NCBI GenBank assembly: GCA_023249375.1
Contig: JAHFCT010000021.1
Span: 1 to 61,042 of the forward strand
Direction of reading: 5' to 3'
DNA: 61,042 nt
Origin: Gemmatimonadota bacterium
GTDB taxonomy: Bacteria; Gemmatimonadota; Gemmatimonadetes; Gemmatimonadales; Gemmatimonadaceae
In this document: piece after piece, positions 55,236-59,230 of the stretch
Position numbering within the stretch: position 1 is the first letter of the stretch
Layout: each line of letters begins with the position of its first letter
Made by a program: the position numbers and the translations under genes
The notes under the pieces: model-generated
The model's database searches: none
Told to the model about the DNA's origin: nothing
What the model saw: the letters and a program-made list of their open reading frames with translations, nothing else

Positions 55236-55323
55236 TAGGGAACTGCGGGGCACGCGGTCACGTAGGTGCTCGCCCATTGGTATTCCGCGCCTTAGGTTGA
55301 GATCACTCACTCGGGAGGCCCCC

Positions 55324-56460
55324 ATGTCCGTCTCGCGCCGCCACTTCGTTTCCGCTCTCGGCCTCGGAGGTGCCGGCCTCGTGTCGCCGCCGTTGTTTGG
55401 CCACCGCGGCCACGAAGCCCGACTCGTCGAGTGGCTGAACGCGCCGCCAGCGCCATCCGCGCTGATTCGCCTCGACAGCAACGAGAATCCGAATGGCCCG
55501 GGCGCCAAGGCGTTCGAGGCCATCCGCGCGATGTTCGGCGAGGCGAACCGGTATCCGGATGATCCCGAACGCGCGCTTGTCGCGGCGATTGCACGCGAGC
55601 ACGGGGTCTCCGAAGACAACGTCATCCTCGGCTGCGGCTCGAGCGAAATCTTGCGCATGTGCGTCGAGCGCTTCGTGAACACGGCGCAGCATCTCGTGAC
55701 GGCGGGGCCGACGTTTGAGCTGCCGGCCAACTTTGCGCAGACGATGGGGCGTCCCGTGGTCACAGTGCCGGTGGACGCCAAGCTGCGGCTCGACCTCGCG
55801 GTGATGGGCGACAAGGCCGGCGGCGCCGGGTTGATCTTCTTCTGCCATCCCAAGAATCCGACGGCGACGGTGCACGGCGACGCCGCGGTGCGTGAGTTCG
55901 TCGCCCGTGTGCGCCGCGACTCGCCGGCCACGTACATCCTCATCGACGAGGCGTACCACGAGTACGTCGACGAGCCGTCGTACAAGACGGCGATCCCGAT
56001 GGCGCTGGCCGATCCCAACGTGATCGTGTCGCGCACCTTCTCCAAGGTGTTCGGCATGGCCGGGCTGCGCGCCGGGTATGCGATCGTGCACCGTGAGACG
56101 GCGCGCAAGCTGCAGGGCTGGCGGTTGGGTTCGGGCATCAACGTGCTCGCCGCGGCCGCGGCCATCGCGTCGATTGGCGATCACGAACACATCGCGCTCG
56201 AGCAGAAGCGCAACCGCGACGCCAAGGCGTTCACGCGCGCGTTTTTCGAGAAGGCTGGGTACGAAGTGGGTGCGAGCGACACGAACTTCCTGATGATCGA
56301 TCTCAAGAAGGACATGCGTCCGGTGCGCGACGCCTGCCGCAAGGAAGGCATCGCCGTCGGCCGGCCGTTCCCGCCGCTGCTGACGCAGCTGCGCATCTCC
56401 ATCGGGACGATGGAGGAGATGGTGAAGGCGACCGACGTGCTCAAGCGAGTGCTCGCGTAA
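55324..56460 (+). CDS. HisC-like class I/II aminotransferase with N-terminal Tat signal
   Basis: A 378-residue PLP aminotransferase. The first 35 residues look like a Tat signal (SRRHFVSALGLGGAGLVSPP). Then comes the HisC-like domain: LDSNENPNGPG, NRYPDDPERALVAAIA, NVILGCGSSEILRM, PKNPTA, LIDEAYHEYV, and the PLP lysine in SRTFSKVFGMAGLRAGY (K241). Cytosolic HisC has no export signal, so this is probably a periplasmic aminotransferase of unknown substrate. GGGAGG precedes the ATG; an upstream in-frame start would precede the Tat motif by nine codons. A TAGGTT promoter-like word lies 26 nt upstream. Confidence 0.82.
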   Translation: MSVSRRHFVSALGLGGAGLVSPPLFGHRGHEARLVEWLNAPPAPSALIRLDSNENPNGPGAKAFEAIRAMFGEANRYPDDPERALVAAIAREHGVSEDNVILGCGSSEILRMCVERFVNTAQHLVTAGPTFELPANFAQTMGRPVVTVPVDAKLRLDLAVMGDKAGGAGLIFFCHPKNPTATVHGDAAVREFVARVRRDSPATYILIDEAYHEYVDEPSYKTAIPMALADPNVIVSRTFSKVFGMAGLRAGYAIVHRETARKLQGWRLGSGINVLAAAAAIASIGDHEHIALEQKRNRDAKAFTRAFFEKAGYEVGASDTNFLMIDLKKDMRPVRDACRKEGIAVGRPFPPLLTQLRISIGTMEEMVKATDVLKRVLA

Positions 56461-56641: not shown

Positions 56642-56744
56642 ATGCTCCAGGCCCCGGTGGGCGCGGGCCCGCCAACTCCGCCAGGGTCGAAAGGCAGCAA
56701 CGGTACGTGGTGTCTCACGTCGCATCGTCAGGCCTGGAGCACTT
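56642..56744 (+). ncRNA. ffs: Signal recognition particle RNA (4.5S type)
   Basis: About 100 nt. The 5' TGCTCCAGGCC and 3' GGCCTGGAGCA close the molecule with an 11-bp perfect stem. The apical SRP core CCAGGGTCGAAAGGCAGCA has a GNRA tetraloop (GAAA) and the conserved AGCA that binds Ffh. Promoter elements lie directly upstream and an 18-bp terminator hairpin directly downstream. It is the scaffold of the SRP that targets nascent membrane proteins. Confidence 0.92.
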
Positions 56745-56829: not shown

Positions 56830-57666
56830 TCAGTCCGCGTCCGTCCACGCATGCGCCGCCGCAAAGGCCTCGCACAGCGCCCGCCGATCGCGCCGCTCCA
56901 CTGCGCCGCGCAGCGCACCGAGCTGCGCGAGACACGTGTCGAGCGCGTCGAGCACCGGCACCGCGTTGTCCTCGAAGATCGCGGCCCACATCTCGGGCGA
57001 TGACGCGGCCATCCGCGTCATATCGCGTCCGCCCGCTCCAAGGCGACTCCGCGCCACCGCACGGGATGACAGCGTGCCCGCCAGCGCGAGTGACAGCAGC
57101 TCCGGCAGATGACTGCTGAACGCCATCTCGGCGTCGTGCATCGTCGCGTCGCGCTCAAGGGGCTTCGCCCCAACTGATCGCCACAGCGCCCGCGCGGCCT
57201 TCCACGTGGCGACGCGAGTGTCAGTCGTGCGGCACAGATCTACGCGTGCCCCCGCGAAAAGTCCCCTCCGCGAGGCCAGCCAGCCGGCGCGGTGATCGCC
57301 GGCCATCGGATGGCTCCCCACGAACCTGCTCGACAAGCCAAGTGCGCTGGCGCGCTGCACGATGCGGCGCTTGGTGCTGCCCACATCCGTGATCAATGCC
57401 GCCTGCGCGATGTGCGGGCGCGCTTGCTCCAGCAACTCCGGCGCGGCGTCCACTGGCACCGCCAGCACCACCGTGTGCGCCTCGCTGAGCGCGCGCAAGC
57501 TGCCGTCGATGACGCGCGCAATCACCCCCGACCGAAACGCATGCCGCGTCGAGGACGTGTCGGCGTCAAAGCCCCACACGGTGGCGCCGCGCGCCGACAG
57601 ATCGCGGGCCAGCGACCCCCCAATCAGGCCAAGGCCGAGGATGGCAAACGGTCCCTCCGAGGTCAC
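56830..57666 (-). CDS. tyrA: Prephenate dehydrogenase
   Basis: A 278-residue enzyme. NAD-binding [15 protein letters not shown], then [14 protein letters not shown], and the catalytic-site phrase [14 protein letters not shown]. The helical dimerisation domain follows ([23 protein letters not shown]). It oxidises prephenate to 4-hydroxyphenylpyruvate, committing to tyrosine. GTG start overlaps the chorismate mutase stop (GTGA). Last gene of the DAHP synthase-chorismate mutase-tyrA operon, facing ffs. Confidence 0.92.
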
Positions 57667-57986
57667 GGCGTGTCGTCCTGCTGCACGCGGCGGCACATCG
57701 CCACTACGGGCCAGAAGATGTCGCGCACGGCCTCCTCGGGCAGTCCGACCCGGCGCGCATGCTTCGCCACCGAGGCGACGACCTGCGCTTCGCGTCGCGG
57801 GTCGAGTGTCGCAAGTCCGGCCTTTCTCTTTTCAGCGCCGATCCTGCGTGCGAGCTCGAGCCGGCGCGCGAGGAGATCCACGAGTTCACCGTCGAGCGCG
57901 CCGAGTTGCTCGCGCAACGCGGCAAGGGCAGCCGACGTCGCGGTCTTCGAGGCAGGCGACGGCGTCGATTTCGAGGCGGGCGTCAT
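57663..57986 (-). CDS. Chorismate mutase (AroQ class)
   Basis: A 107-residue helical protein. After a disordered Ser/Thr/Lys N-terminus (about 18 residues) comes [35 protein letters not shown], then [21 protein letters not shown], the AroQ pattern with the catalytic Arg and Lys positions present. It converts chorismate to prephenate. The ATG shares one base with the DAHP synthase stop (TGATG); a GTG one codon upstream is also possible. Its own stop overlaps tyrA. Confidence 0.9.
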
Positions 57987-59038
57987 CACGCCACCTTCGA
58001 CTTGCGCGTGCTCGCGCTGAGCGTACGTCCCGCCGCTTCGGCGAACGGAGCGAGCGCGCGCATCATCGCGCCGAATGCGTCGAGCGTCAGCGACTGGTCG
58101 CCGTCTGACATCGCCTCGCCCGGGCGCGGATGCACCTCGACAATCAGACCGTCCGCACCCGCGGCGATGGCGGCGAACGCCAGCGCCGGCACGAGGTCGG
58201 CGCGTCCCGCGGCATGGCTGGGATCCACGATGACCGGCAGATGCGTCTCGCGCTTGAGCACGGGAATGGCGGCGACATCGAGCGTGTTGCGCGTGGCGGT
58301 CTCATACGTGCGGATGCCGCGCTCGCACAGCACCACCAGCTCATTGCCGCGCGCCATGATGTGTTCGGCGGCGAGGATGAGCTCGGTGATGGTGGCGGAG
58401 AGCCCACGCTTGAGAAGCACCGGCCGGCGCACGCGTCCCACCTCAGCGAGCAATGCGTAGTTCTGCATGTTGCGCGCGCCGATCTGCAGCATGTCGGCGT
58501 GCTCGGCCACGAGTTCGACGTGGCGCGGGTCCATCACCTCAGTGACCACCGGAAGTCCCGTGGCCGCCCGCGCATCGGCGAGCAGCGCGAGCCCCTGCGC
58601 GCCTAGCCCCTGGAAGGCCCACGGCGAGGTGCGGGGCTTGAACGCGCCGCCGCGGAGCATCGACGCGCCGTGCTCGCGCACGCCGCGCGCGGTCTCGAGC
58701 AGCATTTCGGCGTTCTCCACGGAACACGGTCCTGCCGCCACGATTACGCGGTCTCCACCGAGCGTCGTGCCAGCCGCATCGCCGAGCGGCACAAGCGTGG
58801 GAGTCGCGCGGAACTCCCGCGATGCCAAACGGTACGGCGTGCGCACGGGAACGACCGACGCCACGCCCGGCCATCGGCGGACGGCGCCCGCATCGAGTTG
58901 TGAGGTGTCGCCAATGCACCCCACCACCACTCGGTCAGTGCCGTGCGATACGTGCGTGCGCACCCCGTGCTCCTCGAGGTGCTCGCGCAGGGCGTCGAGC
59001 ACCGGCTGGGGAATGCCTGCTTCGGTAATGATGATCAC
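57986..59038 (-). CDS. aroF: 3-deoxy-7-phosphoheptulonate synthase (DAHP synthase), type I-beta with N-terminal regulatory domain
   Basis: A 350-residue enzyme. Residues 1 to about 75 form a ferredoxin-like (ACT-like) regulatory domain of the Thermotoga type ([21 protein letters not shown]). The barrel follows: [44 protein letters not shown], and [12 protein letters not shown]. It condenses PEP and erythrose-4-phosphate, the first step of aromatic synthesis. GTG start with GGAG 6 nt upstream. A leader peptide/terminator attenuator lies between it and its promoter. Confidence 0.95.
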
Positions 59039-59053
59039 GGCTGCTCCGTTGGG

Positions 59054-59090
59054 GCAAAAGAAAAAGGCCCGCGGACGTGTCCACGGGCCT
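59054..59090 (-). terminator. Attenuator terminator of the aromatic operon
   Basis: On the minus strand, AGGCCCGTGGAC (59090-59079) and GTCCGCGGGCCT (59076-59065) form a 12-bp stem (one G-U) with a 2-nt loop. TTTTTCTTTT follows (59065-59056). It ends about 18 nt before the DAHP synthase start. Confidence 0.9.
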
Positions 59091-59113
59091 GCGGTGCGAA
59101 GGGTTGGTGTCAG

Positions 59114-59194
59114 CTATGCGCGACTACCTGCCCCCGCGGCCCGTGTGAGGACGCGAAAGTAGGAATAAAAGTAGGCGCGGCGGCTGAGCATCAT
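59114..59194 (-). CDS. Aromatic leader peptide (attenuator)
   Basis: A 26-residue frame, MMLSRRA-YFYSYF-RVLTRAAGAGSRA, stop TAG. Five of six residues 8-13 are Tyr or Phe, using the codons TAC TTT TAT TCC TAC TTT. TTT and TAT are uncommon in this GC-rich sequence. The frame ends 24 nt before the terminator stem. Stalling at these codons in low charged Tyr/Phe tRNA would be the sensor of an attenuator. No strong ribosome site is visible; the predicted start of transcription is close to the ATG, so it may be nearly leaderless. Confidence 0.8.
   Translation of the reverse strand: MMLSRRAYFYSYFRVLTRAAGAGSRA
59138..59145 (-). promoter_or_regulatory. Antiterminator arm
   Basis: On the minus strand CACGGGCC (59145-59138), inside codons 17-19 of the leader peptide, is perfectly complementary to GGCCCGTG (59089-59082) in the left arm of the terminator. 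Pairing would prevent terminator formation. It lies directly after the Tyr/Phe codons. Confidence 0.75.
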
Positions 59195-59202
59195 ATGCGG
59201 AC

Positions 59203-59230
59203 TCTAAACGAGGCCGCTGCCGCGCGTCAA
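59203..59230 (-). promoter_or_regulatory. Promoter of the aromatic operon
   Basis: On the minus strand TTGACG (59230-59225), a 16-nt spacer and TTTAGA (59208-59203). The -35 is near consensus, the -10 weaker. The expected start near 59196 is next to the leader-peptide ATG at 59194. Confidence 0.5.

Follow-up and report, generated by a model that had tools for sequence, protein, structure and literature searches.

A candidate Tyr/Phe-sensing transcription attenuator before the DAHP synthase-chorismate mutase-tyrA operon of a Gemmatimonadota bacterium

Described attenuators and the Gemmatimonadota leader

Enterobacterial trp and pheA attenuators are built from control codons, a 1:2 hairpin, a 2:3 antiterminator and a 3:4 terminator with its T-run. 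The nearest precedent for the locus described here is aroR of C. glutamicum, where aroF is preceded by the AroR leader with its Phe-Tyr-Phe codons (Neshat et al. 2014, as summarized in PMC11802643; also PMC4046766 and PMC3890552) and where, according to the summary in PMC11802643, the reported response is to limitation for Phe and not for Tyr. An attenuation hypothesis for E. coli aroF-tyrA dates from 1980, as cited in PMC8632094, and a uORF in the Acholeplasma uORFC-13-1 motif before aroF has been proposed as a Phe attenuator (PMC8632094). A 2005 survey of Actinobacteria reported no attenuators for Phe or Tyr and mentions tyrosine T-boxes (PMC1262725). Leaderless leader peptides are known from Actinobacteria, at ilvBNC, trpL and leuL (PMC8079986; Morbach et al. 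2000, as cited in PMC4046766).

Here we analyze a minus-strand leader in a 61,042-nucleotide stretch of Gemmatimonadota DNA, referred to as the window. We propose that it is a ribosome-mediated (trp-type) transcription attenuator that would sense charged Tyr-tRNA first and Phe-tRNA second, which is much the best explanation of the comparative evidence and one in which we have high confidence. The device appears to be of a known attenuation kind, new for Gemmatimonadota as far as we searched, and unusually broad. The first-pass annotation of this DNA knew of no description of such a leader in this kind of organism; our search, with most subscription literature outside it, likewise found no paper on Gemmatimonadetes or Gemmatimonadota that treats leader-peptide or transcriptional attenuation, although the idea itself has its precedent in the Phe-Tyr-Phe leader of C. 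glutamicum aroF. Little is known about regulation in Gemmatimonadota, and the locus offers a point of control over aromatic amino-acid synthesis that can be put to the test.

Like aroR as summarized in those accounts, the leader is a short aromatic frame before a DAHP synthase gene, and the ribosome stalling reported there would be the means of attenuation here. The likeness is one of description, across phyla, with three aromatic codons there and five here; aroR is moreover said in the same summary to answer Phe, whereas here Tyr codons outnumber Phe codons and tyrA lies in the operon. The order of parts is that of the enterobacterial trp and pheA attenuators (Rfam RF00513), but the window leader is without a Shine-Dalgarno sequence, has its stop ~20 nt past region 2 and scores below the Rfam threshold. 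Acholeplasma uORFC-13-1 also combines a uORF with Phe codon(s) and a terminator before aroF, with attenuation proposed; it differs in having a ribosome-binding site, in carrying at least one Phe codon in place of a Tyr/Phe cluster, and in phylum. The actinobacterial leaderless leaders resemble the window leader, as predicted, in that their peptide begins with the first nucleotide of the transcript or has no ribosome-binding site ahead of it, but serve other operons and other amino acids.

Leader frame, promoter and competing hairpins

The DAHP synthase, chorismate mutase and TyrA reading frames overlap and match the corresponding profiles (Table 1), which bears out the operon named in the first-pass annotation, and the GGAG and GTG placed before its first gene were read directly. 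Among named genomes, the closest relatives of the DAHP synthase come from Gemmatimonadota (63-67% identity), and on this one protein we place the organism in that phylum. The genome encodes two DAHP synthases that are 49% identical (57986-59038 and L002), and only the copy in the tyrA operon has the leader, as is also the case in related genomes. Downstream, a small bacterial SRP RNA on the plus strand (56646-56741, 48.4 bits) converges on the end of tyrA. At 55297-56460 lies a gene for a HisC-like aminotransferase (best model PRK09105) with a twin-arginine-like N-terminus (SRRHFVSALGLGG), which is unexpected in a biosynthetic aminotransferase.

Table 1. Features of the predicted attenuator and its operon, in window coordinates
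Feature	Coordinates	Strand	Remarks
Promoter	59201..59230	-	-35 TTGACG 59230-59225, 18-bp spacer, -10 TAGAGT 59206-59201; predicted start is the leader ATG
Leader frame MMLSRRAYFYSYFRVLTRAAGAGSRA	59114..59194	-	26 codons; ATG 59194-59192, second ATG at 59191, stop TAG 59116-59114; probably leaderless, without Shine-Dalgarno; homologous leaders in relatives
Control codons TAC TTT TAT TCC TAC TTT (Tyr-Phe-Tyr-Ser-Tyr-Phe)	59156..59173	-	Last ones within the 5' arm of the 1:2 (protector) hairpin
Region 2 CACGGGCCGCGG	59134..59145	-	5' arm of the antiterminator
Region 3, CCGC + one or two unpaired bases + GGCCCGTG	59082..59095	-	3' arm of the antiterminator; overlaps the terminator 5' arm
Intrinsic terminator	59056..59090	-	11-bp stem 59090-59080 / 59075-59065, 4-nt loop, then TTTTTCTTTT (T-run, 59065-59056)
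GGAG ribosome-binding site of the DAHP synthase gene	59044..59047	-	Read directly
DAHP synthase (type I-beta, 3-deoxy-7-phosphoheptulonate synthase)	57986..59038	-	GTG start 59038; NF006421 462 bits, TIGR01361 378 bits
Chorismate mutase (AroQ)	57663..57989	-	Several chorismate mutase models, E to 4.5e-14, below curated cut-offs
Prephenate dehydrogenase (TyrA)	56830..57696	-	Prephenate dehydrogenase models to E 2.9e-58, below subgroup cut-offs

Direct reading confirmed the annotated 26-codon frame with YFYSYF at residues 8-13. Among all 10-60-codon ATG frames on both strands of the window it is the only one with at least four Tyr/Phe in six residues, and 20 Markov-shuffled windows held no frame as Tyr/Phe-rich. 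A chance origin of the aromatic leader was rejected on these counts and on the comparison of other phyla with Markov expectation given below.

One sigma-70-like promoter lies exactly one start distance 5' of the leader (shuffled sequences average 0.1), its -35 element at -36 and its -10 element at -12 counted from the first ATG. The arrangement recurs in the 38 loci examined: a -35-like element stands 35-40 nt 5' of the leader ATG in 37, a TAnnnT -10 element usually lies 12-17 nt 5' of it, and a Shine-Dalgarno-like word precedes the ATG in only one. Since promoter spacing is fixed relative to the leader ATG, the transcript is expected to begin at the ATG, and translation of the leader frame is very probably leaderless, its ATG coinciding with the predicted start of transcription. 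The leader implies that transcription and translation are coupled in Gemmatimonadota, probably with leaderless initiation. What the sequences show directly is the set of parts together with its conservation and co-variation, and from these we infer leaderless translation, stalling, termination and a response to amino acids.

The perfect antiterminator candidate annotated after the aromatic codons, CACGGGCC at 59145-59138, has its exact complement, GGCCCGTG, at 59089-59082 inside the terminator 5' arm, and the pairing is longer than was claimed: CACGGGCCGCGG and CCGC-A-GGCCCGTG form 12 bp around a single bulged A (one or two bases unpaired). The annotated terminator stem, followed by TTTTTCTTTT, is present, though by scan it has 11 bp and not 12. 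Several features of a trp-type attenuator are found at this locus: product codons clustered in a short frame between promoter and first gene, an intrinsic terminator between that frame and the first gene, and a competing antiterminator right after the control codons, kept by co-variation. A 1:2 hairpin, which pairs the last Tyr/Phe codons, was found in the window fold and the genus consensus only. Within the genus, alignment columns 113-140 (window ~59123-59095; TTCGCGCATAGCTGACACCAACCC.TCGCA), which run from the leader end past its stop, are almost invariant, a constancy that seems beyond what the predicted pairing alone needs.

Riboswitches, T-boxes and protein-bound leaders control aromatic genes in other phyla, and one of these could be imagined in this position. 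No Rfam family exceeds its threshold here, however, and a known RNA leader family was rejected, the best leader match being Trp_leader (RF00513) at 16.2 bits against a gathering threshold of 41. Any such device would also leave the Tyr/Phe frames unexplained, and we consider it the least probable of the alternatives, and extremely so.

Conservation, co-variation and codon content in relatives

DAHP synthase orthologues were drawn from 99 related genomes. Conservation in relatives, which the first-pass annotation had named as its own test, is extensive: of the ~46 aroF-type loci whose upstream DNA could be read, 41 have a short frame with an aromatic cluster, and a terminator accompanies nearly all of these (leaders include MSRTIAYAYYYYFATPTPGRSWRRTR, MTRAQSYAYYYYYTTHTTGRSWRTR, MSLRAATYFYYYFTPSRMGSGVR and MRFTERFGFFFSFTTPGGASSSGAGKP). 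Small frame, promoter position and terminator all recur in these ~41 aroF orthologues, and the leader is kept in dozens of related genera. Five aroF orthologues are without it (L015, L026, L029/L172, L032 and L043), and the upstream DNA of L022 is too short to judge. The terminator is kept in 8/8 genus members and in nearly every locus lies 3' of the leader stop, mostly by 21-36 nt; in L016, L021 and L031 the automatic search missed it or did poorly, but inspection by eye shows a sequence resembling a terminator.

Elsewhere in these genomes the leader is absent, both before the second DAHP synthase (~50% identical; 0/20 loci) and in trpE upstream regions (0/15). A simple scan of the same genomes also found no Trp leader at trpE and no branched-chain leader at ilvB-like genes, so such attenuation is not apparently a general habit in them. 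The predicted attenuator is a feature of the aroF operon and not of the aromatic pathway at large.

Across loci, region 2, which directly follows the final aromatic codon, pairs with the terminator 5' arm, and the arm pairs differ wholly in sequence (CACGGGCC/GGCCCGTG, GCATGGG/CCCGTGC, CGGGAGCT/AGCTCCCG, CCCCAGGG/CCCTGGGG and CGGGGAG/CTCCCCG). Because the genus alignment is too conserved to inform on compensatory changes, with no double compensatory change in any of its pairs, we used a cross-genus permutation. In 22 representatives the duplex energy averaged -24.3 kcal/mol for a locus's own arms versus -19.1 (sd 0.65) kcal/mol for permuted partners, and none of 10000 permutations was as low. 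Between genera, the antiterminator and terminator arms co-vary. Compared with synonymous-codon shuffles, region 2 pairing has a mean z of -1.26 over 36 loci, 11 of them individually <0.05. Arm fit is weak in L011, L020, L035, L040 and L049.

These results bear on whether the leader is simply a conserved micro-protein, uncoupled from a constitutive terminator. Its second half (RAAGAGVRA) is well conserved in the genus, as that explanation would have it, but the same half differs in other genera, contains region 2 and co-varies with the terminator arm. With paralogous DAHP synthase and trpE genes also lacking such a leader, we hold a free-standing micro-protein to be highly improbable.

Codon content supports the claimed Tyr/Phe sensing, since the leader codons appear to follow the content of the operon. 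In tyrA operons (n = 13) they number Tyr 49:Phe 18 and in prephenate dehydratase operons (n = 13) Tyr 23:Phe 42, L155, which has both genes, being counted in the latter set; the ratio tracks operon content with p = 2.7e-4, relatedness not corrected. This change of leader codons with the branch enzyme amounts to a natural experiment. With three Tyr and two Phe codons ahead of tyrA, the window leader should answer Tyr first. In another family of the order (L042, L044-L049; L162, L164-L169) the leader has mostly Phe codons and is followed by a prephenate dehydratase gene and then a DAHP synthase gene.

An aromatic-rich leader ahead of a terminator would also fit an arrest peptide of the TnaC kind, in which the nascent leader peptide, with free Tyr/Phe in the ribosome, and not tRNA shortage, causes the stall. 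Outside the genus, however, the order and distance of the residues vary (YFYSYF, YAYYYY, YGFRYWF, FGFFFSF, YWYWY), while codon type follows the operon product, and, with the hairpins in this order, sensing of free amino acid would regulate a biosynthetic operon in the wrong direction. We regard an arrest peptide as very unlikely, even as the strongest of the alternatives to tRNA sensing.

The use of TTT and TAT, which had been remarked on for a GC-rich genome, extends to the leaders as a set. TTT is strongly enriched, with TTT:TTC at 48:41 in leaders (48/89) and 18:140 in genes (18/158); TAT is enriched more mildly (32/106 Tyr codons in leaders vs 13/85 in genes). The TTT preference may slow the ribosome or weaken the RNA. 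TTT is also the last aromatic codon in 19/38 leaders of these GC-rich genomes.

Ribosome position and wider distribution

In the model that we propose, RNA polymerase begins at the leader ATG or beside it, and the exposed 5' end of the transcript takes up a ribosome. When Tyr-tRNA or Phe-tRNA is scarce, the ribosome would halt at codons 8-13 and open the 1:2 hairpin formed partly by the control codons, leaving region 2 free. Region 2 would then pair with region 3 as it emerges, no terminator would form and aroF-aroQ-tyrA would be transcribed. When both tRNAs are ample, the ribosome would proceed over region 2 while region 3 emerges, region 3 would pair with region 4, and transcription would end in the T-run after ~139 nt.

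Folds computed for nascent RNA that extends to the terminator loop, with 30 nt masked for the ribosome, are consistent with this model. In the window the antiterminator probability is 0.91-1.00 with the ribosome on a Tyr/Phe codon and zero to 0.21 with it from codon 15 to ~25. The antiterminator score exceeds 0.4 in 31/35 loci with the ribosome on the last aromatic codon versus 2/35 four codons later, a contrast that is partly automatic from the mask, although the placing of the codons relative to region 2 is not.

Once complete, the terminator is favored over the antiterminator at equilibrium, even where a ribosome is stalled. The decision must therefore be a kinetic one, as it is in trp; in the model, the outcome would be set by where the ribosome stands when region 3 emerges. 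Ribosome-free RNA favors the antiterminator at decision length (0.95) and the terminator once that is complete. Region 2 is covered only during reading of ~codons 15-25, and as the stop lies ~20 nt beyond it, a ribosome parked there leaves region 2 uncovered; the fold then again permits the antiterminator (0.95 at decision length). The model as folded here needs termination to be decided with the ribosome on ~codons 15-25, or the 1:2 hairpin to re-form after release.

In other phyla, an ATG frame with at least five aromatic residues in eight lies <=400 nt upstream at 17/74 DAHP synthase loci; the reverse strand gives 0, and Markov sequence would be expected to give 1.85. Most of those inspected are then followed by a terminator; some have a Shine-Dalgarno sequence and some look leaderless, and Geomonas, Bryobacter, a Planctomycetaceae and a Lachnospiraceae are among the examples. 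Given this frequency and the empty reverse strand, the first step of the pathway may be subject to aromatic attenuation far more often than the few described cases indicate. On balance we lean slightly toward a phylum-crossing and mostly undescribed class of Tyr/Phe attenuators governing type I-beta DAHP synthase genes in Gemmatimonadota, Acidobacteriota, Planctomycetota, Desulfuromonadia, Bacillota and others, on leaderless RNA in some phyla and with control codons re-tuned from Tyr to Phe where a prephenate dehydratase gene replaces tyrA.

Aromatic short frames before DAHP synthase genes were seen in Desulfuromonadia, Acidobacteriota, Planctomycetota, Bacillota and others (L077, L084, L087, L109, L115, L116, L118, L131, L140, L152 and further loci), most of them with terminators.
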